Notes: generated by a model from the letters alone, not told the origin. A stretch of DNA of 46,241 nucleotides from Ideonella sp. (GCA_025458335.1 JALOSQ010000006.1:1-46241), one strand, 5' to 3'. Counted from the stretch's first letter, positions 11,075 to 29,318 are shown. Numbers and translations are program-made.

Positions 11075-13534
11075 TCACGGTGGTGGCCAGCGGTCGTAGA
11101 CCCGGGCCGCGACGGGTTCGCCCCAGCATTCGACGGTGACCGGCCGGCCGTCGTGCGGTGCCTGCGCCGGTGTGCCCCGCACGTAACCGAGCGCCACGCA
11201 GCGGCCGCTGCGCCAGCCCCAGCCGGCCGACGTCAGCTCCCCGACGGGCTCGCCGTCGAGGTGGATCGGTTCGCCGCCCCAGCACCACGCGAGCGGGTCG
11301 TCGAGCACGACGGTCACGAGGCGTTTTCGCAGCGGCTGGCCACGCGCCGCCTGCAGGGCCGCGCGCCCGACGAACTCGACCGGCTTGTCGAGCGACACAC
11401 CCGCCCACAGCCCGGCCTCGGCCGGCGTCTCGTCCGGGCCGAGTTCGGCGCCCCAGGCGCGGCGGCCCGCCTCGATGCGCAGGGCATCGAGCGCGTAGTA
11501 GCCGGCATCGCGCAGGCCCAGGCCCTCGGCCGCGTTGCGCATCACCTGATCGACGTGTCGCGCCGCCTCGACGGGCACGTACAGCTCGAACCCGGGGCCG
11601 CCGACGTAGCTCATGCGCGCCGCGCGCACACGGGCATGGCCCAGGTCGATCTCGCGCGTGTGTCGGGCGGGCAGGGCGGCGGGGGACAGGTCGTCCGGGC
11701 TGACGCGGGACAGAAGCTGCGGCGCTCGCGGCCCCATCACCGACAGGACCGCCCAGGCGCCCGTCACCTCGTCGATCACCACCTCCTCGCCCTCGAGGCG
11801 ATGTCGGCGCAGGTGATCGGCGTCCCGCACCGGCTGCGCCGAGCCTGTCACGAGCAGGAAACGATCGGGGCCCAGACGGATCACCGTCAGGTCTCCCTCG
11901 AACCCGCCATGCGGGTTGAGCATCGCGCTGTAGACCATCCGGTCGACCGGTACGTCGACGTCGGCCGCGCAGACCCGCTGCAGCAGCGCGAGCGCGCCGC
12001 CACCCTGCACCAGCAGCTTGCCGAAGCTCGTCTGGTCGTAGAGCGCGACCGCCTCGCGCGTGGCGCGCTGCTCGGCGATCACGTTGGGCAGCCACCCAGG
12101 CCGATGCAGCGTCGGCGGTGGCTCGGTCTGCCCGGGCTCGAGGAAGTAGTTGGCTCGCTCCCACCCGAACTTGCTGCCGAACACGGCCCCCGCGGCCCGC
12201 AGCCGGTCGTACAGCGGCGACGTGCGCAACGGACGCGCGGTCTGCAACTCCTGTCGCGGCCAGCGCATCGCATAGTGCAGGCCCAAGGTCTCGCCGGTGC
12301 GCTCGGCCAACGCCCGACGGTTGGATTGGTAGGGACCGAAGCGGCGGATGTCGACGTCCCACAGGTCGCCTGGCGCCGTGCCGTCGATGATCCAGCGTGC
12401 GATCAGCTGTCCCGCGCCCCCGGCGTTGGCGATGCCGGCCGAATTGAAGCCCGCCGCGACGAAGAACCCACTGAGCTCGGGCGCCTCGCCGAGGATGAAG
12501 TTGCCGTCGGGCGTGAAACTCTCCGGGCCATTGAGCAGCATCTTGACGCGGGCCGTCTCCAGGCACGGTGTGCGGTGGATCGCGTTGCGCATCAGGATCT
12601 CGAACTGGTCCCAGTCCTCACCGAGCAACTGGAACTGGAAGTCCGCCGGGATCGGGTCGACGGTCCACGGCTTGGCCTTCGGCTCGAAGCCGCCCATCAG
12701 CAGGCCGCCGACCTCCTCCTTGTAGTAGATGTAGCCATCCGGGTCGCGCATGACCGGCAGCATCGGATGCACGCCGTCGATGCGATCGGTCACGATGTAG
12801 AAGTGCTCGGCGGGGTACAGCGGCACGTTCACCCCGGCCAGCGCCCCGAACTGCCGCGACCACTGGCCGGCGCAGCACAGCAGCGTGTCGCACTCGAGGG
12901 TCCGCACGGCGTCGCCGTCTGCCGAGCCGGTCGGCCGCACGCGCACGCCCGCCACACGACGCCCGGCCACCGCCGGACGGGTCAGCACCTCGACGACCTC
13001 GAATCCCTCGGCAAAGCGCACACCCCGCGAGCGAGCCCCCTTGGCCAGCGACATCGTGAGGTCGGCCGGGTTCGCCTTGCCGTCGCCCGGGATCCACAGC
13101 GCGCCGTGAAGGTCGTCGGTGCGCAGGAGCGGGTACAGCCGTCCGGCCTCGGCAGGGCCGACCAGTTCGACATCGACACCGAAGCTTCGGGCGAGGGCGG
13201 CCTGGCGTTTCAGCACCTTCAGGCGATCGGCCGAGGCCGCGACGTTCAGGCTGCCACAGGCCTTCCAGCCGGTGGCTAGGCCCGTCTCGGCCTCGAGCCG
13301 CCCGTACAGCTCGATCCCGTAGCGGCTCATGCGCGTCATGGTGCGGTTCGGGCGCATCTGCCCGACGAGTCCCGCCGCGTGCCAGGTCGTGCCGCTGGTC
13401 AGCTTGCCTTGCTCGAGCACCAGCACGTCACGCCACCCCTCGGCCGCGAGGTGGTACGCGGCCGAGCAGCCGGCGATGCCGCCGCCGACGACGATCACCT
13501 GGGCTCGGGTGGGCAGGGCGGCACGATCGGTCAT
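11075..13534 (-). CDS. FAD-dependent dimethylglycine/sarcosine dehydrogenase-like oxidoreductase with GcvT domain
   Basis: This 819-residue protein has the dimethylglycine/sarcosine dehydrogenase architecture. It begins with an N-terminal DAO-type FAD domain (VIVVGGGIAGCSAAYHL, residues 13-29). The WHAAGL motif with His52 follows; its equivalent binds FAD covalently in the mammalian enzymes. Next come the middle FAO region and, from about residue 440, a GcvT folate domain introduced by FGWERANYFLEPG. Family members oxidise N-methyl groups and pass the one-carbon unit to tetrahydrofolate. It is the last gene of the minus-strand phosphonate operon, 70 bases after the EamA gene. I infer a role in demethylating N-methylated aminophosphonates or N-methylglycines made from them, not general betaine catabolism. 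No Shine-Dalgarno is visible before ATG 13534. The exact substrate is unknown. Confidence 0.88.
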   Translation of the reverse strand: MTDRAALPTRAQVIVVGGGIAGCSAAYHLAAEGWRDVLVLEQGKLTSGTTWHAAGLVGQMRPNRTMTRMSRYGIELYGRLEAETGLATGWKACGSLNVAASADRLKVLKRQAALARSFGVDVELVGPAEAGRLYPLLRTDDLHGALWIPGDGKANPADLTMSLAKGARSRGVRFAEGFEVVEVLTRPAVAGRRVAGVRVRPTGSADGDAVRTLECDTLLCCAGQWSRQFGALAGVNVPLYPAEHFYIVTDRIDGVHPMLPVMRDPDGYIYYKEEVGGLLMGGFEPKAKPWTVDPIPADFQFQLLGEDWDQFEILMRNAIHRTPCLETARVKMLLNGPESFTPDGNFILGEAPELSGFFVAAGFNSAGIANAGGAGQLIARWIIDGTAPGDLWDVDIRRFGPYQSNRRALAERTGETLGLHYAMRWPRQELQTARPLRTSPLYDRLRAAGAVFGSKFGWERANYFLEPGQTEPPPTLHRPGWLPNVIAEQRATREAVALYDQTSFGKLLVQGGGALALLQRVCAADVDVPVDRMVYSAMLNPHGGFEGDLTVIRLGPDRFLLVTGSAQPVRDADHLRRHRLEGEEVVIDEVTGAWAVLSVMGPRAPQLLSRVSPDDLSPAALPARHTREIDLGHARVRAARMSYVGGPGFELYVPVEAARHVDQVMRNAAEGLGLRDAGYYALDALRIEAGRRAWGAELGPDETPAEAGLWAGVSLDKPVEFVGRAALQAARGQPLRKRLVTVVLDDPLAWCWGGEPIHLDGEPVGELTSAGWGWRSGRCVALGYVRGTPAQAPHDGRPVTVECWGEPVAARVYDRWPPP

Positions 13535-13604: not shown

Positions 13605-14486
13605 TCAGGCGAGCCGCAGCGCGATGACGCCGCCGAGGATCAGCGCCGTGCCCGTCGCGCGCTGCAGCCCGAACCGCTCGCCGAGCCAGCGCGTGCCGAT
13701 CAGCGCGGCGAACAGGACCGAGGCCTCGCGCAGCGCCGCCACTGCCGCGATCGGGGCGCGGGTCATCGCCCACAGCGCGATGGCATAGGAGCCCAGCGAG
13801 GCGAGCATGCCGATGGCCAGCAAGGGCGCGCGACGGCGCATCGCCGCGTAGGCGGCCGGCCGGCCGGCGGCGCCGCGCTGCCACAGCACCAGGGCGAGGA
13901 AGGGCAGCCCGTCGAACAGGAACAGCGCCGCCACGTACTGCAAGGCCTGTCCGCCGTGCTCGACGGTCGTGCGGATGCCCAGCCCGTCGACGACCGTGTA
14001 GGCGGCGATGATGCCGGCGTTGAGCAGCGCCCAACGAACCGCCGGACCCGGCATGCGCGGCAGGCCGCTGGTCCAGCGCGGGGCCGACGCCAGGCCGAGC
14101 AGCAGCACGCCGGCGCTGACGCCGAAGACCGCCAGCCAGCCCGCCAGCGGCAGGATCTCGCCGATGAGCGGTGCACTGGCCAGTGCGACGAGCACCGGCG
14201 CGAGGCCGCGCATGATCGGGTAGGTGAGGGTGAGGTCGCCGTGCCGGTAGGCGCCGGCGAGCGCGATGTAGTAGGCCAGGTGGATGATCGTCGAGGCGAC
14301 GATCCAGGGCCATGCCTCGGGGGGCGGGAAGCCGACGACGGCCAGCAGAGGAATGGCGGCGAACGCACCGAGCGAGTGCATCGTCGCGATGTCCAGCGAC
14401 TTGTCGTCGCCTGCCTTGACCATGGCATTCCAGGAGGCGTGCAGCAGTGCCCCGAAGAGCACGGCCGCGATCACCTCCCAGCTCAT
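13605..14486 (-). CDS. EamA/DMT family transporter in phosphonate operon
   Basis: This is a 293-residue drug/metabolite transporter superfamily protein with two EamA repeats and about ten hydrophobic helices. The N-terminal pattern ALLHASWNAMVKAG and the end of the second repeat (PIAAVAALREASVLFAALIG, WLGERFG) are typical. ATG 14486 overlaps the stop of the HD gene (TCAT on the plus strand, ATGA on the minus), which sets the start and implies translational coupling; the longer track ORF from 14735 is rejected. Within this operon it may move a phosphonate or an amine product across the inner membrane. Direction and substrate cannot be told from sequence. Confidence 0.9.
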   Translation of the reverse strand: MSWEVIAAVLFGALLHASWNAMVKAGDDKSLDIATMHSLGAFAAIPLLAVVGFPPPEAWPWIVASTIIHLAYYIALAGAYRHGDLTLTYPIMRGLAPVLVALASAPLIGEILPLAGWLAVFGVSAGVLLLGLASAPRWTSGLPRMPGPAVRWALLNAGIIAAYTVVDGLGIRTTVEHGGQALQYVAALFLFDGLPFLALVLWQRGAAGRPAAYAAMRRRAPLLAIGMLASLGSYAIALWAMTRAPIAAVAALREASVLFAALIGTRWLGERFGLQRATGTALILGGVIALRLA

Positions 14487-15051
14487 GCGGCCGCGCGCGA
14501 GGCACGGTCGATCTGGCAGCGAGCGGCGTAGCCGAGGAAGTGCTCCAGCGGCGGCGTGCGCAGGCCGGGCTGCTTGGCCCGGTCGTCCCACACCCGCAAC
14601 GCCACCGCGTCGCGCGCGCCGGGCTGCAGGATGAACGTGGCGGCCTGAACCTCGGTGAACACCCCGCCTTGCAGCTTCAGGCTGCGCTTGGAGTCCTCGG
14701 ACAAGTTGTCGTGGTAGGCCGGGTCGACACGGCACAGGTAGCGCTTGGCCTCCACGTGCAGCCGGATCGGCTCGCTCACCGCGGGCGCGAACAGGCCTCG
14801 AAGGTACATCGCGCCCAGGCGCTGGTGCGTGTCATCGATCCCTTCGAGCGTCGGCGTTCCGGAGCGGCGCGACAGCAGGTGACCAATGTCGTGCAGCAGG
14901 CAGGCCGTGATCAGCTCGGCGGTGGCGTCGGCCTGTTCGGCCAGGTGAGCCGACTGCAGCGCGTGCTCGAGGTGCGTGACGGGTTCGCCGTCGTACTGCT
15001 CGCCGCCGCGGTTGAAGAAGAGCAGACGCAGGTCGTCGAGGTTCGGCGCGC

Positions 15052-15055
<4 letters not shown>
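14483..15055 (-). CDS. Phosphonate operon HD-domain protein, PhnZ/TmpB-like di-iron oxygenase
   Basis: This 190-residue HD-fold protein belongs to the group found in phosphonate-degradation operons. In PhnZ and TmpB a mixed-valent di-iron centre splits the C-P bond of 1-hydroxy-2-aminoethylphosphonate or its N-trimethyl form. Metal-ligand candidates are present at PhnZ-like spacing: His31, His55-Asp56 (LLHDIGH), His77 and His100. Tyr21 and Glu24 (QYDGEPVTHLEHALQ) match the Tyr/Glu pair that contacts iron and substrate in PhnZ, as I recall that structure. It overlaps phnY by 4 bases upstream and the EamA gene by 4 bases downstream. No alpha-ketoglutarate hydroxylase partner (PhnY*/TmpA) was recognised. 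The substrate is therefore inferred. Confidence 0.9.
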
Positions 15056-18494
<3,439 letters not shown>

Positions 18495-18501
18495 GCACCG
18501 G

Positions 18502-18534
18502 ATTGGACGGGAGCGCCTGCAGATTGTCAACAAT
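18502..18534 (-). promoter_or_regulatory. phnR promoter with overlapping GntR-type operator
   Basis: On the minus strand, a perfect TTGACA (-35, plus-strand 18525-18530) is followed after 17 bases by TCCAAT (-10, 18502-18507). The -35 box sits inside the dyad ATTGT-CA-ACAAT (18523-18534), which fits the TNGTNNACNA-type site of FadR-subfamily GntR regulators. This suggests autorepression. The predicted start falls at or next to the phnR ATG, so the transcript may be leaderless. Confidence 0.6.
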
Positions 18535-18610
18535 CCACAGTAAAGCGTCTGCGGGAAACCGTGCCTTGCCACCCAGGGGGCGGCTTGGGCACCATCCGGG
18601 CCGACCGTCG

Positions 18611-18695: not shown

Positions 18696-19775
18696 ATGAA
18701 CCGGGGTTCCCAGCGCCTTGCCACCGCCGCCCGACCGTTGGGCCATCTGGCCCGTGCCGCCGCGCTCACGGCCGTCGGCCTGTGCCTCGCCGCCGCCGCC
18801 TGGGCCCAGCGCACGACGCTCACCGTCTACACCGCGCTCGAGACCGACCAGCTCAAGGCCTACGAGAACGGCTTCAAGGTGGCCAACCCCGACATCGACA
18901 TCAAGTGGGTGCGCGACTCCACCGGTGTCGTCACGGCCAAGCTGCTCGCGGAGAAGTCCAACCCGCAGGCCGACGTGATCTGGGGCGTCGCCGCCACCAG
19001 CATGGCGCTGTTCGACAAGGAGGGCATGCTCCAGCCATTCGCGCCGCTGAACCTCGACGCGATCATGCCGCAGTACCGGGACCGCAAGAACCCGCCGGCC
19101 TGGGTCGGGATGAACGTCTGGGGCGCCACCGTGTGCTTCAACACCGTCGAGGCCCAGAAGCGCGGCATCCCCAAGCCGGAGACCTGGCAGGACCTCACCA
19201 AGCCGGTCTACAAGGGGCAGGTCGTGATGCCGAACCCGGCCTCCTCGGGCACGGGCTTCTTCGACGTCACCGCCTGGCTGGGACTGTGGGGCGACGACAA
19301 CGGCAAGGGCGGCGGCTGGAAGTTCATGGACGCCCTGCACGAGAACATCATGCAGTACACCCACTCGGGCTCGAAGCCGTGCGTGATGGCCGGCGCCGGC
19401 GAGGCCGTGGTCGGCATCGCCTTCGAGTTCCGCGCCAACACCATCAAGGCGCGCGGCGCCCCGATCGACCTGGTGTTTCCCAAGGAAGGTCTCGGCTGGG
19501 ACCTCGAGGCCGTCGCGATCCACAAGGGCACGAAGAACCTCGCGGCCGCTCAGAAGCTGATGAACTGGGCCACCAGCAAGGACGCCATGATGCTGTACGG
19601 CCGCAATTTCGCGATCACGGCCCAGCCGGGCGTGGCCGCGCCGCTGCCGAACGTGCCCAAGGACTACGAATCGCGCCTGGTCAAGAAGGACTTCGCGGCC
19701 GAGGCGGCGAGCCGGGAACGCATCCTGGCCGAGTGGACCCGGCGCTACAACGCCAAGTCGGAGCCGCGGCGCTGA
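18696..19775 (+). CDS. phnS: AEP ABC transporter substrate-binding protein
   Basis: This periplasmic binding protein belongs to an iron/AEP-type ABC importer; the family is the putative 2-aminoethylphosphonate binding component of Burkholderia-type clusters. The 359 residues start with a signal peptide (n-region MNRGSQRLATAARPLGHLAR, hydrophobic core to about 38, cleavage near AWA-Q). The mature protein has TLTVYTALETDQLKAYENGF and PASSGTGFFDVTAWLGLWG, typical of the family. ATG 18696 has CAGGAG 5 bases upstream, so the longer track start is rejected. It leads the plus-strand half of the phosphonate regulon. Confidence 0.92.
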   Translation: MNRGSQRLATAARPLGHLARAAALTAVGLCLAAAAWAQRTTLTVYTALETDQLKAYENGFKVANPDIDIKWVRDSTGVVTAKLLAEKSNPQADVIWGVAATSMALFDKEGMLQPFAPLNLDAIMPQYRDRKNPPAWVGMNVWGATVCFNTVEAQKRGIPKPETWQDLTKPVYKGQVVMPNPASSGTGFFDVTAWLGLWGDDNGKGGGWKFMDALHENIMQYTHSGSKPCVMAGAGEAVVGIAFEFRANTIKARGAPIDLVFPKEGLGWDLEAVAIHKGTKNLAAAQKLMNWATSKDAMMLYGRNFAITAQPGVAAPLPNVPKDYESRLVKKDFAAEAASRERILAEWTRRYNAKSEPRR

Positions 19776-19798
19776 AGGCCGACGACCTGCCGGCGGCT

Positions 19799-20890
19799 GT
19801 GGCGTCGAGCGGGCCTGCCGCCACGCGGCGGGCGGACGATTACGTCCGCCTGACCGCGGTCGGCAAGCGTTTCGGCGCCTTCGAGGCGCTTCGCGACATC
19901 GACCTCGCGGTCGGTGAGGGCGAGTTCGTCTGTTTCCTCGGGCCGTCGGGCTGCGGCAAGACCACGCTGCTGCGGGTCGTCGCCGGGCTTGAAGCGCCGA
20001 CGTCCGGCCGCGTCGAGCTCGGCGGCCGCGACGTCACCGCGCTGCCGCCGGCCGAGCGCGACTACGGGATCGTCTTCCAGTCCTATGCGCTGTTCCCGAA
20101 CCTCACGGTCGCCGAGAACGTCGGGTACGGGCTGGCCAACCGGCGCATGCCACGGTCTGCGATTCGCGAGCGCGTGACCGAACTGCTGGTGCTCGTGGGG
20201 CTGCCCGGCAGCGAGGGGAAGTTCCCGGCGCAGATGTCGGGCGGCCAGCAGCAGCGAGTGGCGCTGGCCCGCGCACTGGCCACGTCGCCGCGCCTGCTGC
20301 TGCTCGACGAGCCGCTTTCGGCACTCGACGCGATCGTGCGCGTGCGCCTGCGCGACGAGATCCGGGCCCTGCAGCGCAAGCTCGGCGTGACCACGATCAT
20401 GGTCACGCACGACCAGGAGGAGGCCTTGTCGGTCGCCGACCGGATCGTCGTGATGAACCACGGCGTGATCGAGCAGATCGGCTCGCCCCTCGAGGTGTAC
20501 CGGGACCCGTCGACGCCGTTCGTGGCCGACTTCGTCGGCAAGGTGAACATCCTGCCCGCCGCGGTCGAGGCGAACGGACGCCTGCGCGTGGGCGACCAGG
20601 CCTGGTACTGCGCCGGACCGGCGCGCGCGCACGGCCAGGTCAAGGCCTACCTGCGACCGGAGGACCTGCTCGCGCGCCCGATCGGCCCCGACGACGTCAA
20701 CGTGTTCGAGTCGACCATCGACAAGATCGAGTTCCTCGGACCGCTTTGCATGGTGCACGTGACCGCGCCGGCCGTCAGCCTCGAGGCGCTGACGGTCGCC
20801 CTGTCGCTCAACTACCTGACCGAGCAGCAACTGCGCGTCGGCAGCCGCCTGCCGCTCCGCGTGCCTCCCGACCGGATCCGCCTGTTTTGA
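19799..20890 (+). CDS. phnT: AEP ABC transporter ATP-binding protein
   Basis: This is the cytoplasmic ATPase of the AEP importer, 363 residues from a GTG start. Walker A is GPSGCGKTT, the Q-loop lies in FQSYALFPNLTVAENV, the signature is MSGGQQQRVALARAL, Walker B is LLLLDEPLSALD and the H-loop is MVTHDQEEAL. A C-terminal TOBE-like domain (about 270-363) includes KAYLRPEDLLARP. The track shows a 746-residue open frame from 18650, but its first 380 residues are out-of-frame shadow of phnS. GTG 19799 is the best in-frame start 23 bases after phnS; it has no strong Shine-Dalgarno, so the start is the weak point. Confidence 0.9.
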   Translation: MASSGPAATRRADDYVRLTAVGKRFGAFEALRDIDLAVGEGEFVCFLGPSGCGKTTLLRVVAGLEAPTSGRVELGGRDVTALPPAERDYGIVFQSYALFPNLTVAENVGYGLANRRMPRSAIRERVTELLVLVGLPGSEGKFPAQMSGGQQQRVALARALATSPRLLLLDEPLSALDAIVRVRLRDEIRALQRKLGVTTIMVTHDQEEALSVADRIVVMNHGVIEQIGSPLEVYRDPSTPFVADFVGKVNILPAAVEANGRLRVGDQAWYCAGPARAHGQVKAYLRPEDLLARPIGPDDVNVFESTIDKIEFLGPLCMVHVTAPAVSLEALTVALSLNYLTEQQLRVGSRLPLRVPPDRIRLF

Positions 20891-20934: not shown

Positions 20935-22620
20935 GTGCGGATGCGCGTGCCCGCAACGGACCGCCTGGCCCATGCCGCCCTCGCACTCGTGGGGCTGCTG
21001 CTGGCGGTGTTCCTGGGTGCGCCACTGGTCGCGATCGGCGTCGAGGCGGTTCTCGATCGCGAGGGCCGCTTCGTCGGCCTGGCCAACATCCTGAGCTACC
21101 TGACCACGCCGGCGCTGCTGCAGTCGCTGTGGAACAGCGTCTGGGTGTCGTCGCTGGTGACCTTGCTCACCGTGCCGATCGCCTTCGGATTTGCCTATGC
21201 GCTCACGCGCAGCTGCATGCCCCTGAAGGGCCTGGCCCGCACGATCACGCTGATCCCGCTGCTGGCGCCGTCGCTCCTGTCGGCGATCTCGCTGATCTAC
21301 TGGTTCGGCAACCAGGGAGCGGCCCGCGGGTTGATCCAGGCGTTCGGCTTCGAGAACATCTACGGTGCCCCGGGCATCGTGCTCGCCCAGTGTTTCGCGG
21401 TGTTCCCGCACGTGCTGATGATCCTGGTCACCGCGCTCTCGCTGGCCGATGCGCGGCTGTACGAAGCGGCCGACGCCATGGGCACCAGCCGGGTCCGCAA
21501 GTTCTTCACCATCACCCTGCCGGGCGCCAAGTACGGGCTCATCTCGGCTTCCATGGTGGCGTTCACGCTGGTCATCACCGACTTCGGCATCCCCAAGGTC
21601 ATCGGCGGCAACTTCAACATGCTCGCCACCGACGTCTTCAAGCTGGTCATCGGGCAACAGGACTTCCAGCGCGGGGCCGTGGTCGCGCTCCTGCTCCTCG
21701 CGCCGGCGGTGCTGACCTTCGCGGTCGATGCGCGCGTCCAGCGCAAGCAGGTGGCCATGCTCGGGGCGCGAGCCGTCCCGCTGCGGCCCCGGCCTTCGCG
21801 GGGATTCGACGCGCTGATGGGCGTGCTGTGCCTGTCCGTGTGCGCGCTGATGCTGGCGATGCTGGGCATGGCGGTGTTCGCGTCGTTCGCCACGTTCTGG
21901 CCTTACAACCTCGAGCCCAGCCTGAACCACTACCGGCACGGCCTCGTCGATGCCGAGGTCGGCGAGGCCTTCGTGAACAGCCTGCAGCTCGCCGCCGGCA
22001 CCGCCTTCTTCGGCACGGCGCTGGTGTTCGCCGGGGCGTACCTGCTCGAGAAGACGCGCGGCGCCGATGCCTTGCGCCCGCCGGTGCGACTGCTGGCGAT
22101 GCTGCCGATGGCCGTGCCAGGCCTGGTGCTCGGCCTGGGCAGCATCTTCTTCTTCAACGCCCCGTCGAACCCGCTGGGCTTCCTGTACCAGTCGATGGCG
22201 CTGCTGATCCTGTGCACCATCGTCCACTTCTACACCACCGGGCACCTGACGGCGGTCACGGCGCTCAAGTCGCTCGACCCGGAGTTCGAGTCGGTGTCGG
22301 CTTCGCTCAAGGTGCCGTTCTACCGCACGTTCTGGCGCGTCACGCTGCCGATCTGCACGCCGACGCTGGTCGACATCGCCCGCTACTTCTTCGTCAATGC
22401 GATGACGACCATCTCGGCGGTCGTCTTCCTCTACTCGCCGGAGACCAAGGTCGCCTCGATCGCCATCCTCAACCTGGACGAGGCCGGCGAAACGGGGGCC
22501 GCGGCAGCGATGTGCGTGATGATCGCGGCGGTGTCCCTGGTGTTCACCCTGCTCTTCATGGCCGCAGGCGCCTGGGTCGACCGGCGCACACAGGCCTGGC
22601 GGCACCCTTCCCACACCTGA
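20935..22620 (+). CDS. phnU: AEP ABC transporter permease, two fused permease domains
   Basis: This inner-membrane permease of about 561 residues has two binding-protein-dependent transport domains in one chain. The first EAA-like loop is [20 protein letters not shown] and the second is [20 protein letters not shown], so one subunit could form the whole channel. About twelve hydrophobic helices are visible. The start is uncertain: GTG 20935 (AGGA 9 bases upstream), ATG 20941, or TTG 20887, which overlaps the phnT stop as TTGA. The FbpB-like fused layout is usual for this AEP transporter family. phnW follows after 7 bases. Confidence 0.9.
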
Positions 22621-22627
22621 GTCCCCC

Positions 22628-23695
22628 ATGGACCGCGACCCTATCCTGCTCACCCCCGGCCCCCTGACGACGACCCTGCGCACCAAGCTGGCGATGCTGC
22701 GCGACTGGGGTTCGTGGGATGCCGACTTCAACGCCATCACCGCCGAGGTCCGGCGCGAGATCCTGGCCATCGCCCATGCCGCCGACACCCACGTGGCCGT
22801 GCCGCTGCAAGGCAGCGGCACCTTCGCGGTCGAGGCCGCGGTGTCCACCCTCGTGCCGAGGGACGGTCACCTGCTGGTGCTCGACAACGGCGCCTACTGC
22901 AAGCGGCTGGGCAAGCTGGCCACGCTGATGGGACGCCGCACGACGATCCTCGGCCGCCCGGAGGACCAGCCGGTCGACCCGGCCGAGCTGGACCGGCGGC
23001 TCGCCGAGGATCCGTCGATCACCCACGTCGGGCTGATCCACTGCGAGACCGGCACGGGCGTCCTGAACCCGTTGGCCGAGGTCGCCGCGGTGTGCGAGCG
23101 TCACGGCCGCGGGCTGATCGTCGATGCAATGAGCAGCTTCGGCGCGCTGCCGGTCGATGCCCGCACGACCCGCTTCGACGCGCTGATCGCCGCGAGCGGC
23201 AAGTGCCTCGAAGGCGTTCCCGGGATGGGCTTCGTGCTGATCCGACGGGCCGTGCTCGACGGCTGCGCCGGCCGTTCGCACTCCCTGGCCATGGACCTGC
23301 ACGACCAGCACGCCTACATGGAGCGCACGGGTCAGTGGCGCTTCACCCCGCCCACGCACGTCGTGGCGGCCCTGGCCGAGGCGATCCGCCAGTTCAAGGA
23401 GGAGGGCGGCCAGCCCGCGCGACTGGCCCGCTACCGGGCCAACGGCGAGGCGCTGGTCGACGGCATGGCGATCATCTACACCTTCCACGCACCGGCGCAT
23501 CCGCGCTACGACTTCAAGCGCTTCTACGCGGCGGCGAAAGCCCGGGGGTTCATCCTCTACCCGGGCAAGCTGACGGAGGTCGAGACTTTCCGCGTCGGCT
23601 GCATCGGCGCGATCGATCGCACGGTCATGCGCCAGATGGTCGCCGCGGTGGCCGATGCGATGACCGAGCTCGGCCTGCCGATCGGTCCGCGCTGA
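22628..23695 (+). CDS. phnW: 2-aminoethylphosphonate--pyruvate transaminase, with an internal gap
   Basis: PhnW is a PLP enzyme that converts AEP and pyruvate to phosphonoacetaldehyde and alanine. The 355 residues have [14 protein letters not shown] at the N-terminus, Asp166 (VDAMSSFGA), the PLP lysine Lys192 ([14 protein letters not shown]) and the substrate-carboxylate Arg in ETFRVGCIG. Relative to the family as I know it, about 14 residues are missing after DGMA at about residue 281, where others read like ALGF..PFL....QAP before the IIVTFHAP strand; here the sequence runs directly to IIYTFHAP. The gap is in frame and the rest is intact, so the enzyme may be a variant, impaired, or affected by a sequencing error. 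Its operon neighbours strongly support the assignment. Confidence 0.93.
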
Positions 23696-23790: not shown

Positions 23791-25197
23791 ATGCCGTCCC
23801 GTGCTGCCGCTGCCCCACGCTCCCGTGGTCCCAGGACCGGTGCCGTCGACGCGGCCGCACTGCGCGCCGCCGGCGCCCGCAAGGTGAAGGTGGCGGTGAG
23901 TGACATCGACGGCATCCTGCGCGGCAAGTACCTGCACCTCGACAAGTTCGAGTCGGCGCTGGCCGGCGGCTTCGGGTTCTGCGACGTGGTTTTCGGTTGG
24001 GATGCCCACGACAGCTGCTACGACAACACCCAGGTCACTGGTTGGCAGCACGGATTTCCCGATGCGATGGTGCGACTCGACCTGCACACCCGCCGCGCGG
24101 TGCCCTGGGACGACGGGGTGCCGTTCTTCCTGGGCGAGTTCGTCCAGGGTGACGGCTCGCCCTACCCGGTGTGTCCGCGTCAGGTGCTGCAGGGTGTGCT
24201 GCGCCGGGCCGCCAAGCTCGGCGTGCAGCCGATGTGTGGCCTGGAGTTCGAGTGGTTCAACTTCGCCGAGACGCCGCAGAGCTGGGCGGCCAAGCGCGGG
24301 GTCGGGCCCGAGCCGATCACGCCGGGCATGTTCGGCTACTCGCTGCTGCGCATGGCGGACCAGCAGGGCTTCTTCAATGCGCTGATGGACGACATGGCGG
24401 CCTTCGGCGTGCCACTCGAGGGCCTGCACACGGAGACCGGCCCTGGCGTGTACGAGGCGGCGATCACCTTCAGCGACGCACTCGAGGCGGCGGATCGGGG
24501 CATCCTGTTCAAGACGGGCGCCAAGGAGATCGGCAAGCGCTTCGGCGTGATGCCCAGCTTCATGGCCAAGTGGAGCGCCCAGTACCCCGGGTGTTCGGGT
24601 CACATCCATCAGAGCCTGTCGGACGGCAAGTCCAACCTGTTCTACGAGCCCAAGGGCAAGGGAGACCCGCGGCGCTCGATGAGCCGCGTCTTCGAGAGTT
24701 ACCTGGCCGGCCAACTCGAGTGCCTGCTCGAGTTCGCGCCCATGTTCTGGCCCACGGTGAACAGCTACAAGCGGCTGGTGGACGGCTTCTGGGCACCCGT
24801 CAAGCCAACCTGGGGGCTGGACAACCGCACCGCCAGCTTCCGCGTGATCGCCGGCAGCCCCAAGAGCACGCGCCTGGAAACGCGCTGCCCGGGCGCCGAC
24901 ATGAACCCCTACCTGGCCGTGGCCGCCGTGATCGCGGCCGGACTGCATGGCGTCGAGAAGGGGCTCAAACTCACCGCACCGCCCATCACCGGCACCAACC
25001 AGGGCGCCGAGCACATCCCGCGGGCGCCGCGCACGCTGATCGAGACCACCCGGGCATTCCGCCAATCGGATCGTGCGCGCGACTGGTTCGGCGACACTTT
25101 CGTGGACCACTTCGCGGCCACCCGCGAGTGGGAGTGGCGCCAGTGGCTCGACGCGGTCACCGACTGGGAGCTCAAGCGCTACTTCGAGATCATCTGA
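23791..25197 (+). CDS. Glutamine synthetase-like gamma-glutamyl-amine ligase
   Basis: This 468-residue protein has the full glutamine synthetase fold and ligand set. The beta-grasp region has SDIDGILRGKYLHLDKF and the metal-binding stretches are GLEFEWFNF and HTETGPGVYEAA. SGHIHQS is the GxxHxH-like loop, followed by NSYKRL, NRTASFRV and RLETRCPGADMNPYL. It lacks the adenylylation tail of nitrogen-assimilating GlnA and is closer to the PuuA/IpuC type, which joins glutamate to amines. ATG 23791 has GAAAGG 8 bases upstream; the track's 827-residue frame is an artefact overlapping phnW. Its place behind phnW suggests the amine could be AEP-derived or an amino alcohol. The substrate is not determined. 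Confidence 0.88.
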   Translation: MPSRAAAAPRSRGPRTGAVDAAALRAAGARKVKVAVSDIDGILRGKYLHLDKFESALAGGFGFCDVVFGWDAHDSCYDNTQVTGWQHGFPDAMVRLDLHTRRAVPWDDGVPFFLGEFVQGDGSPYPVCPRQVLQGVLRRAAKLGVQPMCGLEFEWFNFAETPQSWAAKRGVGPEPITPGMFGYSLLRMADQQGFFNALMDDMAAFGVPLEGLHTETGPGVYEAAITFSDALEAADRGILFKTGAKEIGKRFGVMPSFMAKWSAQYPGCSGHIHQSLSDGKSNLFYEPKGKGDPRRSMSRVFESYLAGQLECLLEFAPMFWPTVNSYKRLVDGFWAPVKPTWGLDNRTASFRVIAGSPKSTRLETRCPGADMNPYLAVAAVIAAGLHGVEKGLKLTAPPITGTNQGAEHIPRAPRTLIETTRAFRQSDRARDWFGDTFVDHFAATREWEWRQWLDAVTDWELKRYFEII

Positions 25198-25243
25198 GCC
25201 GTGCCAGGCGCGGCCGATACACCCCTTCGCACAGGAGACCGAC

Positions 25244-25933
25244 ATGGGAAGCACCGTGACCTTCAAGCGCCCTGACGGCCAGTCCGTCTCGGGCTACCTG
25301 GCCGAGCCCGAAGGCGGGCAGGGACCCGGCGTGGTGGTGATCCAGGAATGGTGGGGCCTGAACGACCAGATCCGGGGCGTCGCGGACCGACTCGCCGAGG
25401 CCGGCTACGTCGCACTGGTGCCCGACCTGTACCGAGGGAAGTCGACGGTCGAGGCCGAGGAGGCTCACCACCTCATGACCGGCCTGAACTTCGGTGAGGC
25501 CGCGTCGCAGGACATCCGTGGGGCCGTCCAGCACCTGAAGGCCCGGTGCCCGAAGGTCGGGGTGACGGGCTTCTGCATGGGCGGCGCGCTGACCGTGCTG
25601 TCGGTGACGATGGTGCCCGAGGCCGACGCCGGGTGCATCTGGTACGGCTTCCCACCGCTCGAGTTCGTCGACGCCAGCAAGATCAAGGCGCCACTGATCG
25701 CCCATTGGGCGACGCAGGACGTGCCGTTCCCCATCGCCAACGTCGCCGCGCTCGAGGAGAAGTTCAAGGCGGCCGGCGTGGCGTACCACGGGTATCGGTA
25801 CCTCGCGCATCACGGGTTCGCCAACGAAACCGCGCAGGGACCGGGCCGCATCGAGATGACCCAGTACGACGAGGCGTGGGCCCAGATCGCCTGGGACCGC
25901 ACGCTTCGCTTCTTCGGGCGGACCCTCGGCTGA
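25244..25933 (+). CDS. Dienelactone hydrolase family protein
   Basis: This 229-residue alpha/beta hydrolase of the dienelactone hydrolase family has the nucleophile Cys111 in GVTGFCMGGAL, Glu35 in IQEWWGLN, and a late His in YLAHHGFANE. The Asp of the triad is likely in the HWATQD segment. Cys in place of Ser is typical of true dienelactone hydrolases. CAGGAG lies 6 bases before ATG 25244, so the longer track start is rejected. The iron-ADH gene begins 2 bases after its stop. Its ester or lactone substrate is unknown; no chlorocatechol genes are nearby, so classic dienelactone breakdown is unlikely. Confidence 0.9.
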   Translation: MGSTVTFKRPDGQSVSGYLAEPEGGQGPGVVVIQEWWGLNDQIRGVADRLAEAGYVALVPDLYRGKSTVEAEEAHHLMTGLNFGEAASQDIRGAVQHLKARCPKVGVTGFCMGGALTVLSVTMVPEADAGCIWYGFPPLEFVDASKIKAPLIAHWATQDVPFPIANVAALEEKFKAAGVAYHGYRYLAHHGFANETAQGPGRIEMTQYDEAWAQIAWDRTLRFFGRTLG

Positions 25934-25935
25934 GC

Positions 25936-27081
25936 ATGACCATCACCACCTTCAGCTTCCCCACGACGATCCACTTCGGCGCCGGCGCCCGGCGACTGGT
26001 GGCCGACCACCTGCGCGGCCAGGGGCTGGTGCGGCCGCTCATCGTGACCGACCGCGCCCTCGCAGCCCTGCCGGTCACCGCCGAGTTCCGCTCGCACCTG
26101 GGCGGGCTCGAGGTGGCGGTGTACGACGGGGTGCACGGCAACCCGACGGCCTCGCAGGTCATGCGTGGGGCCGAGGCATTCCGCGCGCACCGCGCCGACT
26201 GCGTGATCGGCTTCGGCGGGGGCGCCGCGCTGGACGTGGCCAAGGTGGTGGCCCTGATGGCCGTGCACGAAGGCGACGTCATCGAATATGCCTGGGACCA
26301 CCCGCAGGCGCGTCCCATCGTGCACGCGCTGCCGCACTTCGTGGCGCTGCCCACGACCGCCGGCACCGGATCGGAGGTGGGCCGCTCCTCGGTGGTCGCC
26401 GAGGATGCGTCCCCTGGCGGTGGTCACGTGAAGCGCGCCGTGTTCAGCCCACATCTGCTGGCCAAGGCGGTGTTCGCCGACCCCGAGCTCACGCTGGCGC
26501 TGCCTCCCGCGGTGACCGCGGCCACCGGCATGGACGCCCTGACGCACAACATCGAGAGCTACCTGTCGCCCGCCTGGCACCCGATGTGCGACGGCATCGC
26601 CCTCGAGGGGTTGCGGCTGGGTGCCCGGGCACTCGAGACCGCCGTGCGTGAACCGGGGAACCTGCAGGCACGGTCCGACATGCTGATGAGTTCGCTGATG
26701 GGCGCGGTCGCCTTTCAGAAGGACCTCGGGTCGGTGCACGCCTGCGCCCACGCGCTGGGGGCCGTCTGCGACCTGCACCACGGGCTCGCCAACGCGCTGA
26801 TGATCGACACCGTGCTGGCGTGGAACCGCGACGCCGTGCCGGGCAAGTTCGACGAACTTGCCCACGCGGCCGGGTTGGCCGGCGGCGGGGCCGCGTTCGT
26901 GCCCTGGCTGCGTGGGCTCAAGCAGCGCATCGGCATCACCGGTGGCCTGGCCGACCGCGGTGTCCGCCGCGAGCACCTGCCACGCCTGGTGGAGATCGCG
27001 TCGGTGGACTTCGCCGGGCGCACCAACCCACGTCCTGCATCGCCCCAGGACTACGAGCGGCTGCTGATCGCCGCCATGTGA
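25936..27081 (+). CDS. Iron-containing (group III) alcohol dehydrogenase
   Basis: This 381-residue member of the iron-type alcohol dehydrogenase family reduces or oxidises NAD(P)-linked alcohols. The nucleotide region has IGFGGGAALDVAK. The metal site reads GMDALTHNIESY (Asp and His) and VHACAHALGAVCDLHHG (two further His at the spacing seen in FucO). In phosphonate biosynthesis, related enzymes (PhpC type) interconvert phosphonoacetaldehyde and 2-hydroxyethylphosphonate. Because this gene sits behind phnW, it may feed hydroxyethylphosphonate into the pathway or act on a glutamylated amino alcohol made by the upstream ligase. It starts 2 bases after the dienelactone hydrolase stop. Confidence 0.92.
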   Translation: MTITTFSFPTTIHFGAGARRLVADHLRGQGLVRPLIVTDRALAALPVTAEFRSHLGGLEVAVYDGVHGNPTASQVMRGAEAFRAHRADCVIGFGGGAALDVAKVVALMAVHEGDVIEYAWDHPQARPIVHALPHFVALPTTAGTGSEVGRSSVVAEDASPGGGHVKRAVFSPHLLAKAVFADPELTLALPPAVTAATGMDALTHNIESYLSPAWHPMCDGIALEGLRLGARALETAVREPGNLQARSDMLMSSLMGAVAFQKDLGSVHACAHALGAVCDLHHGLANALMIDTVLAWNRDAVPGKFDELAHAAGLAGGGAAFVPWLRGLKQRIGITGGLADRGVRREHLPRLVEIASVDFAGRTNPRPASPQDYERLLIAAM

Positions 27082-27165
27082 TCCCACCGCCGCGCGCCCA
27101 GCGGGGTCGGCTGGGCGACCACGGCGCCGCATGCGTCCTCCCACCTTCATCCCTCACCCGATGCC

Positions 27166-28560
27166 ATGAACGCCGGACCGATGCTCGACATCGTCAACCC
27201 CGCGACCGAGCAGCGAATCGCCTCGGTCACCGCCGACGCGGCCGAACAGGTCGCCTCCAAGGCTGCGGCCGCCCGCGCGGCCCAGCCCGCCTGGGCGGTT
27301 CGGCCGCTGGCCGAACGCGCCGGCTGCCTGCGGCGTTTCCGCGCGGCCGTGGAGGCCGAGTTGCCCACCCTCGCGGCCACCCTGACCAGCGAGATGGGCA
27401 AGCCGATCCGGCAGGCGCGCAACGAGCTCACGGCCTTCCTCGGGCGCATCGACTTCTTCCTGGACCAGGTCGAGCACGCCATCGCGCCTGAAGTCGTCCT
27501 GGCACCGCCTGGCCGTCCCGGCGACACCACCGAGGGCATCACGCACGACCCGCTCGGCGTGGTGGCGAATATCTCGGCCTGGAACTACCCGTACTTCGTC
27601 GGCGGCAATGTCTTCGTGCCGGCGCTGCTCACGGGCAATGCCGTGCTCTACAAGCCGTCGGAGCACGCGACCCTGAGCGGACTGCACATGACACGGCTGC
27701 TGCACGCGGCCGGCGTTCCCCAGGACGTGTTCATCCCCGTGATCGGGGCCGGCGGCATCGGCGCGGCCTTGCTGGCACAGGCGGTCGACGGCGTGTTCTT
27801 CACCGGCTCGAACGCCACTGGAGCTCGCATCGCCCAGGCGGTGGGTCCCCGGATGATCCGCATGCAGCTCGAGCTCGGCGGCAAGGACCCCACCTACGTG
27901 TGCGACGACGCTCTGGTGCGGGCCGCAGCCGAGTCGCTGGCCGACGGCGCGATGTACAACGCCGGCCAGAGCTGCTGCTCGGTCGAGCGCATCTATGTGC
28001 ACGAGCGCATCCACGACGCCTTCGTCGAGGCCTTCGTCGAGACGGTACGCGGCTTTCGCCTGGGCGACCCGATGGACGAGGACACCTACCTCGGGCCGAT
28101 CGCCCGGGCGCCGCAGTTGGCCGTGCTGGAAGCCCAGGTCGCCGATGCGGTGGGCAAGGGCGCTCGACTTCTCACCGGGGGTCGACGATTGCCGGGACCG
28201 GGCTGGTGGTTCGAGCCCACCGTGCTCGTTGGCGTCGACCACCGCATGGACGTGATGCGCGAGGAATCCTTCGGCCCGGTGATCGGCATCCAGCAGGTGC
28301 GCGACGACGACGAGGCGCTGGCCCTCATGAACGACACCCGCTACGGGCTGACGGCCGGCGTCTACACGCAGGACGAGGCCCGCGCCGCCCGGCTGCTGCC
28401 GCGCCTGAACGCAGGCAGTGTCTACTGGAACTGCTGCGACCGCGTCAGTCCGCGCCTGCCCTGGTCGGGCGTGGGCGCCTCGGGTATCGGCCTGACGTTG
28501 TCGACCTACGGCATCCAGGCCTTCACGCGACCGCGCGCCTGGCACCTGCGGCACCCGTGA
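27166..28560 (+). CDS. NAD(P)-dependent aldehyde dehydrogenase
   Basis: This 464-residue aldehyde dehydrogenase has the catalytic Cys in NAGQSCCSVERIYVH and the general base Glu in LELGGKDPTY. The cofactor loop is SAWNYPYFVGGNVFVPALL, and REESFGPVIGIQ and a SGIGLTLSTYG C-terminus are also present. The size and the lack of an N-terminal extension fit the short succinate-semialdehyde-like group, but it is not PhnY, which is encoded at 15052. Its pairing with the upstream alcohol dehydrogenase suggests an alcohol-to-aldehyde-to-acid route. It starts 84 bases after that gene and its stop overlaps the HAD gene start as GTGA. Confidence 0.92.
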   Translation: MNAGPMLDIVNPATEQRIASVTADAAEQVASKAAAARAAQPAWAVRPLAERAGCLRRFRAAVEAELPTLAATLTSEMGKPIRQARNELTAFLGRIDFFLDQVEHAIAPEVVLAPPGRPGDTTEGITHDPLGVVANISAWNYPYFVGGNVFVPALLTGNAVLYKPSEHATLSGLHMTRLLHAAGVPQDVFIPVIGAGGIGAALLAQAVDGVFFTGSNATGARIAQAVGPRMIRMQLELGGKDPTYVCDDALVRAAAESLADGAMYNAGQSCCSVERIYVHERIHDAFVEAFVETVRGFRLGDPMDEDTYLGPIARAPQLAVLEAQVADAVGKGARLLTGGRRLPGPGWWFEPTVLVGVDHRMDVMREESFGPVIGIQQVRDDDEALALMNDTRYGLTAGVYTQDEARAARLLPRLNAGSVYWNCCDRVSPRLPWSGVGASGIGLTLSTYGIQAFTRPRAWHLRHP

Positions 28561-29318
28561 GTCACGCGGCGTCGCCTGCCGACAGGCCGGTATCCGCCGC
28601 GCGGCTCGTGCTGTTCGACCTCGACCACACGTTGCTCGACGCCGACACCGACGTCCTGTGGTGCGCCTTCCTGATCGGCGAGGGCCTGCTCGATCGGTCG
28701 GTATTCGAGGCGCGCAACGCGGCGATGGAGCAGGGCTACCGGGCCGGGACGGTGACGGCCGCCGCATTCAGCGGCTTCTACCTGTCGACCCTTGCCGACC
28801 GCCTCGTCGAGGACACCGACGCGATGCGCCGGAGATTCGTCGCTCGCGAGGTGCTCCCGCGCATGAAGCCGGCGGCCCTGGACTGCCTGAATCGGCACCA
28901 GCGCCGGGGCGATCGGGTGATCCTGACGACTGCGACGAGCCGCGTCCTCACCGAACCCACCGCCGAGGCCCTGGGCATCGACGAGCTGATCGCAACCGAG
29001 GCGGAGCTCGCGAACACGCCCGCCGGCCCGCGTTACACCGGCCGGCCCGTCGGGACGCTCAACATGCGCGAAGGAAAGGTCGAGCGTCTGCGAGCGTGGC
29101 TCGGTTCCGCCGACGTCGACGCCGACGCCGAGGGCCGCGCCATACCTCGCGCGGACGTCGCGCCTTCCGCACTGGCAGCGGCGGTCTTCTACTCGGATTC
29201 CGCCAACGACTTGCCGCTGCTGCGCGCGGTCGGCCACGCGGTCGCCGTCGACCCTGACCGCCGACTGCGCCAGGAGGCGGCGTTGCGGGCGTGGCCGGTG
29301 TACTACTGGCGTCGCTGA
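28557..29318 (+). CDS. HAD-family phosphatase (HAD-IB, SerB-like)
   Basis: This 253-residue haloacid-dehalogenase-superfamily hydrolase has motif I FDLDHTLLD (nucleophile Asp), motif II TTATSR, a conserved Lys in MREGKVERL and motif IV DSANDLPLL. It is the phosphoserine-phosphatase-like HAD-IB group that often acts on small phosphorylated metabolites. The GTG start at 28557 overlaps the aldehyde dehydrogenase stop (GTGA); the track's longer frame is not real upstream of this. Residues around 175-195 hold an Asp/Ala-rich insert (SADVDADAEGRA). As the last gene of the plus-strand phosphonate unit it could release phosphate from an intermediate, but the substrate is unknown. Confidence 0.9.
   Translation: MSHAASPADRPVSAARLVLFDLDHTLLDADTDVLWCAFLIGEGLLDRSVFEARNAAMEQGYRAGTVTAAAFSGFYLSTLADRLVEDTDAMRRRFVAREVLPRMKPAALDCLNRHQRRGDRVILTTATSRVLTEPTAEALGIDELIATEAELANTPAGPRYTGRPVGTLNMREGKVERLRAWLGSADVDADAEGRAIPRADVAPSALAAAVFYSDSANDLPLLRAVGHAVAVDPDRRLRQEAALRAWPVYYWRR

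Follow-up and report, generated by a model that had tools for sequence, protein, structure and literature searches.

Here we present an analysis of a 46,241-nucleotide stretch of DNA from Ideonella sp. (GCA_025458335.1 JALOSQ010000006.1:1-46241; hereafter the window), and in particular of a module of five genes at positions 23,791 to 29,318 that lies behind phnW, the gene for the 2-aminoethylphosphonate (2-AEP, or AEP) aminotransferase. All six genes are on the plus strand, in the order phnW, glutamine synthetase-like (GS-like) ligase, dienelactone hydrolase (DLH) family protein, iron-containing alcohol dehydrogenase (Fe-ADH), aldehyde dehydrogenase (ALDH) and HAD phosphatase. The gaps are 95 bp between phnW and the ligase gene, then 46, 2 and 84 bp, and the ALDH and HAD genes overlap by 4 bp; the spacing of the five genes is operon-like. 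A preliminary description had listed these five genes on one strand behind phnW with short gaps or overlaps, and indeed every open reading frame was present, with Pfam supporting each family. It had also raised a promoter and terminator separating phnW from the module; a consensus scan of 18-30 kb, itself uninformative, gave no promoter-like sites and no excess of terminator-like sites over shuffles, so that no boundary between phnW and the module is visible. On its other side the module is followed by a paa (phenylacetate) operon, from 29412 by sequence reading. Also, the window holds a complete PhnW-PhnY-PhnA set with a 2-AEP-type ATP-binding cassette (ABC) transporter, all above curated cut-offs (Table 1).

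The GS-like ligase scores below every NCBIfam equivalog cut-off, including those for PuuA (NF045547, 172.9 bits against a cut-off of 650) and for type I and type III glutamine synthetase (TIGR00653, 194 of 429 bits; TIGR03105, 197 of 470 bits), and is 26% identical to PuuA of E. coli. The catalytic GS residues E129, E131, E212, E220, H269, R321, R339, R344, E357 and R359 are kept (98/98 relatives). Three ammonia-site residues are changed in the same 98/98: Y179 to F, N264 to P and, in the flap, E327 to W. We take these changes to be compatible with an amine larger than ammonia.

Conservation of the module and its probable substrate

GS orthologues were collected on 80 genome contigs (best segments 77-85% identical), of which 61 have at least 3 kb upstream and 60 are well flanked; individual loci are labelled L. 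The GS, Fe-ADH and ALDH genes stand in the same order in most of the 80 loci, a recurrence that places the grouping far beyond chance. The conserved block in related Burkholderiales consists of GS-like ligase, Fe-ADH, a PuuD-like hydrolase and ALDH, and phnW usually precedes it: phnW is next to GS in 45 of the 61 loci with sufficient upstream sequence, and among the 60 well-flanked loci Fe-ADH is downstream of GS in 57, ALDH is present in 54 and the PuuD-like gene in 47. The gamma-glutamylation route previously suggested for the module is supported by these counts and acquires in the hydrolase a fourth enzyme, which had been overlooked because the window copy lacks it. This gene, between those for Fe-ADH and ALDH, encodes a Peptidase_C26-family class I glutamine amidotransferase, with the gamma-glutamyl-gamma-aminobutyrate hydrolase PuuD as its best curated match, below that model's cut-off. 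Furthermore, among 399 genomes drawn evenly from this order, with the window's own genome counted apart, GS occurs in 16, PhnW in 45 and both in 12, against about 1.8 expected (Fisher p 1e-9, kinship ignored), and where the two are not adjacent they are often still about 7-50 kb apart. The earlier proposal that the module rides with phnW is thus borne out.

Evidence on the substrate came from loci of a different kind. In L049, L051, L062 and L067 the block lies directly behind an ethanolamine permease (TIGR00908, 625-629 bits, cut-off 381.75), and in L130 behind a permease identical in protein to the one that passes this model. These five loci are without phnW, and the orthologues they carry are about 80% identical. 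At 1e-40, PhnW is absent from four of the five genomes, and the fifth (G154) is not among the PhnW-positive genomes; more widely, 15 of the genomes of the 16 loci without a neighbouring phnW lack PhnW at this threshold, and one has a 41% match. In the tree, the permease-linked ligases branch inside the phn-linked clade, so both contexts very probably share a substrate. Additionally, EutB is absent from 22/22 module-bearing or related genomes, with a positive E. coli control. Taken together, the permease linkage, the nested ligases and the absence of EutB indicate that ethanolamine is most likely the substrate of the module, a strong case from context that favours the amino alcohol among the substrates first proposed. 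Homologous modules lying mainly in unrelated contexts with a known substrate had been named as grounds for doubting the tie to phnW. This holds only in part, since phnW accompanies the module in 45/61 loci.

The distribution of the HAD gene was scored over 61 rows, the 60 well-flanked loci and the window. Of the 36 ligase loci with the phn ABC transporter, 31 have the gene; it is missing from all 25 without the transporter and from all 33 phnW loci of ligase-free genomes, 22 of which carry the binding protein of the transporter. The HAD gene follows the ABC transporter, not PhnW, and is seen only where transporter and GS module coexist. In a Comamonas-like clade (L037, L038, L040, L054) phnW and the module are kept while the transporter, at the 5' end, and HAD, at the 3' end, are both absent. 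The five transporter loci without HAD are L023 and L044, where the rest of the module is lost or displaced; L133, where GS lies away from Fe-ADH; L078, where a permease resembling TIGR00908 (355 bits, slightly below the cut-off) stands between phnW and GS; and L030, a plain exception. The module HADs, in which the HAD motifs are intact, form a clade of their own and have conserved residues that set them apart. A housekeeping, histidinol-phosphatase-like gene was rejected as their identity, since a separate paralogue of that kind lies on contig C290, and a role as general phnW companion was rejected on the 0/33 count. The restriction of HAD to loci with both transporter and module can be explained by a phosphatase that makes ethanolamine from imported phosphoethanolamine; common inheritance of a single composite cluster, followed by losses, would also account for part of the pattern.

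Proposed route and alternatives

From the observed gene content, order and conservation, the intact motifs of ligase and HAD and the patterns of co-occurrence, the locus probably joins two routes for aminoethyl-phosphorus compounds, one for 2-AEP and one for phosphoethanolamine and ethanolamine, with all enzymatic activities of the module predicted from sequence. The ABC transporter would import 2-AEP and presumably also phosphoethanolamine, its C-O-P analogue. 2-AEP would be converted to acetate and phosphate by PhnW, PhnY and PhnA, and HAD would cleave phosphoethanolamine to ethanolamine and phosphate. Ethanolamine would then be joined to glutamate by the GS-like ligase, giving gamma-glutamylethanolamide, which Fe-ADH would oxidize to the aldehyde and ALDH to gamma-glutamylglycine; the PuuD-like hydrolase would finally release glycine and glutamate. 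With moderate confidence, we propose that phosphoethanolamine enters through the 2-AEP-type transporter and that the HAD phosphatase releases its ethanolamine. The phosphate release first attributed to this enzyme would accordingly stand, with phosphoethanolamine and not a phosphonate as its likely substrate. More tentatively, one operon and one transporter may scavenge both C-P (2-AEP) and C-O-P (phosphoethanolamine) headgroups, with a new, dedicated HAD-IB phosphatase as the bridge from transporter to ethanolamine pathway.

Several findings weigh against this joint route. The ligase matches a solved C. salexigens GS (5dm3) moderately (215 bits) and is 38-39% identical to Paenarthrobacter proteins annotated IpuC, so family alone leaves the substrate unfixed. 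No ethanolamine permease is present in the window, and in the open-access literature searched we found no paper on phosphoethanolamine uptake by this type of transporter. When HAD and transporter were compared in phylogenetic pairs, five pairs were supported, of which 3.4 on average went the same way and none the opposite way (p ~0.25); about five independent pairs are too few for significance, and statistics alone do not prove the link. The PuuD-like gene has no match anywhere in the window, leaving this cluster without its gamma-glutamylglycine hydrolase, and the sole other PuuD-like protein found in the incomplete genome (81%) belongs to a polyamine-type cluster on contig C52. Finally, the DLH gene interrupts the window copy between GS and Fe-ADH.

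The last two findings bear on how far the window copy represents the pathway. PuuD is cleanly absent in L047, L061, L066, L089 and L127 as well, and the window copy, which would work like an ethanolamine gamma-glutamylation pathway, is an incomplete member whose hydrolysis step would need another source, such as the protein on C52. That cluster (G000, locus L102), a second gamma-glutamylation cluster in the window's genome, comprises the PuuD-like gene, a GS relative (28% identity), two aminotransferases and a polyamine-type transporter. In L027, L065, L071 and L077 two PuuD-like genes lie near the module. A check of conserved columns gave no support for decay of the window's module, which deviates at 5/282 positions in GS, 3/183 in Fe-ADH and 2/198 in ALDH vs 7/204 in phnW.

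The DLH gene, previously counted as a member of the module, has no counterpart in any orthologous module, and its 77% homologue in G001, a genome of the same genus, lies just upstream of paaI-paaK-paaA. We judge it a passenger outside the pathway, as if it had originally adjoined the paa operon and been caught up when the island formed. A role as substitute hydrolase is rejected as a general rule because the five PuuD-less loci named above are without DLH and because of the G001 homologue beside paa. Unrelated genes stand at the GS-FeADH junction in L015, L076, L098, L099 and L101 as well as in the window (25244-25933); they encode a PIN-domain protein, an acetyltransferase, an amidohydrolase, a transposase, a solute-binding protein and DLH, as if this junction were tolerant of insertions.

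Three other explanations were weighed against the joint route. The first takes the module for an ordinary ethanolamine pathway, placed in one operon with the AEP genes only because both supply nitrogen, with ethanolamine entering otherwise and HAD acting on a different substrate. It accommodates the core module existing alone, with or without ethanolamine permease, the fact that ethanolamine breakdown chemistry needs no HAD, and the transporter and module without HAD in L030; yet the occurrence of HAD only with both transporter and module calls for an explanation that links the two, and we regard this account as unlikely. That the ligase acts instead on isopropylamine, aminopropanol, a polyamine or another amine or amino alcohol, in the manner of IpuC or PuuA, is improbable: in its favour are the IpuC identity given above and the glutamine amidotransferase genes that also lie near the ipuC genes concerned, but the P450 and ferredoxin genes beside them have no counterpart in this module, the PuuA model is far under its cut-off (173 of 650 bits), and orthologous modules are linked to ethanolamine permease. 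Glutamylation of AEP or another phosphonate-released amine, as the preliminary description had proposed, or of hydroxy-AEP, for which the position behind phnW and the strong genome co-occurrence with PhnW speak, is very improbable, since AEP has no alcohol group for Fe-ADH and is already handled by PhnW, PhnY and PhnA, and the module also lies in PhnW-free genomes and beside ethanolamine permease.

Phosphonate genes and further neighbours

Table 1. Coordinates of the module and of the surrounding phosphonate genes in the window.
Feature	Position	Strand	Evidence
GS-like gamma-glutamyl-amine ligase (proposed glutamate-ethanolamine ligase)	23791..25197	+	468 aa; PF00120, Gln-synt_C 1e-86
DLH family protein	25244..25933	+	229 aa; PF01738, DLH 2e-51
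Fe-ADH (proposed gamma-glutamylethanolamide dehydrogenase)	25936..27081	+	381 aa; PF00465/PF25137, Fe-ADH 2e-41
Empty place where relatives have PuuD-like gamma-glutamyl hydrolase	27082..27165	+	no PuuD match in window
ALDH (proposed gamma-glutamyl-aminoacetaldehyde dehydrogenase)	27166..28560	+	464 aa; PF00171, Aldedh 4e-131
HAD-IB phosphatase (proposed phosphoethanolamine phosphatase)	28557..29318	+	253 aa, GTG start; HAD 4e-34, TIGR01490 above cut-off
phnW, 2-AEP aminotransferase	22628..23695	+	above three PhnW equivalog cut-offs
phnU2, ABC permease	20941..22620	+	TIGR03262 781 bits, cut-off 593
phnT2, ABC ATPase, start codon provisional	19772..20890	+	TIGR03265 498 bits, cut-off 458
phnS2, putative 2-AEP-binding protein	18696..19775	+	TIGR03261 484 bits, cut-off 393
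GntR regulator, phnR type	17673..18572	-	TIGR03338 316 bits, cut-off 272
phnA, phosphonoacetate hydrolase	16478..17701	-	TIGR02335 595 bits, cut-off 408
phnY, phosphonoacetaldehyde dehydrogenase	15052..16518	-	TIGR03250 847 bits, cut-off 636
Phn-HD oxygenase	14483..15055	-	TIGR03276 234 bits, cut-off 215

A 4-bp overlap joins the end of phnY to the Phn-HD oxygenase gene, next to which we noticed none that would encode PhnY*, a hydroxylating partner. Near the phn genes, at 11075-13534 on the minus strand, lies the gene for an 819-residue flavin adenine dinucleotide (FAD)-dependent oxidoreductase with a fused GcvT-like folate domain, and the phn genes have such a neighbour also in L079 (67%), L139 (58%) and L178 (55%). 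It could serve in demethylation of an N-methylated aminophosphonate or betaine, and its fused GcvT-like domain distinguishes it from the published phosphonate-cluster FAD enzymes PbfB/C/D. Many related loci, the window not among them, have a Na/phosphate cotransporter-like protein beside phnY or GS (L133:6095-7807, L136:10998-12743, L028:1-836, L033:6377-8041), possibly for export of surplus phosphate.

Comparison with known systems

The preliminary description knew of no pathway with exactly this set of genes; the core set matches ethanolamine gamma-glutamylation, which has been described in Streptomyces (PMC6529630) and Phaeobacter (PMC10132767), with C. salexigens and Agrobacterium cited as demonstrated precedents in the latter paper. 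As in the C. salexigens, A. tumefaciens and Phaeobacter MED193 pathway (PMC10132767), the genes for ligase, gamma-glutamylethanolamide dehydrogenase and aldehyde dehydrogenase lie beside each other. That operon, however, includes a gamma-glutamylglycine amidohydrolase, which the window copy lacks, and an ethanolamine tripartite ATP-independent periplasmic (TRAP) transporter, with no phn genes or HAD listed, whereas the window has the 2-AEP-type ABC transporter, phnW and HAD. The GlnA4 route of Streptomyces coelicolor (PMC6529630) is likewise proposed to run from a GS-like ligase through dehydrogenase and aldehyde dehydrogenase to a hydrolase that yields glycine, but it relies on a short-chain dehydrogenase and has a regulator of its own, and no link to phosphonate genes is reported for it. 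The E. coli Puu pathway for putrescine shares the logic of glutamylation, aldehyde dehydrogenase and C26 hydrolase; the module has no PuuB oxidase or PuuE, and has Fe-ADH instead. In the IpuC isopropylamine route, P450 and ferredoxin genes flank the annotated ipuC, unlike the window ligase. Every gene of the Burkholderiales PhnWYA route for 2-AEP, including PhnS2T2U2 and phnR (TIGR03261, 03262, 03265, 03338) is in the window, which differs in having HAD, found in 0/33 phnW loci from ligase-free genomes.

If the joint route is correct, the phosphonate operons of many Burkholderiales would be phosphoethanolamine operons too, and the presence of such an operon would not report phosphonate use alone. 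A ligase subfamily outside the curated equivalogs, a HAD-IB clade and a C26 hydrolase would then each gain a substrate, and these bacteria, without EutB in every genome tested, would have an ethanolamine-to-glycine route. No description of ethanolamine gamma-glutamylation and HAD paired with an AEP operon was found in the open-access literature searched; each half of the locus is a known kind of pathway, and it is their coupling by a transporter-linked phosphatase within an AEP operon that, against that literature, appears to be new.

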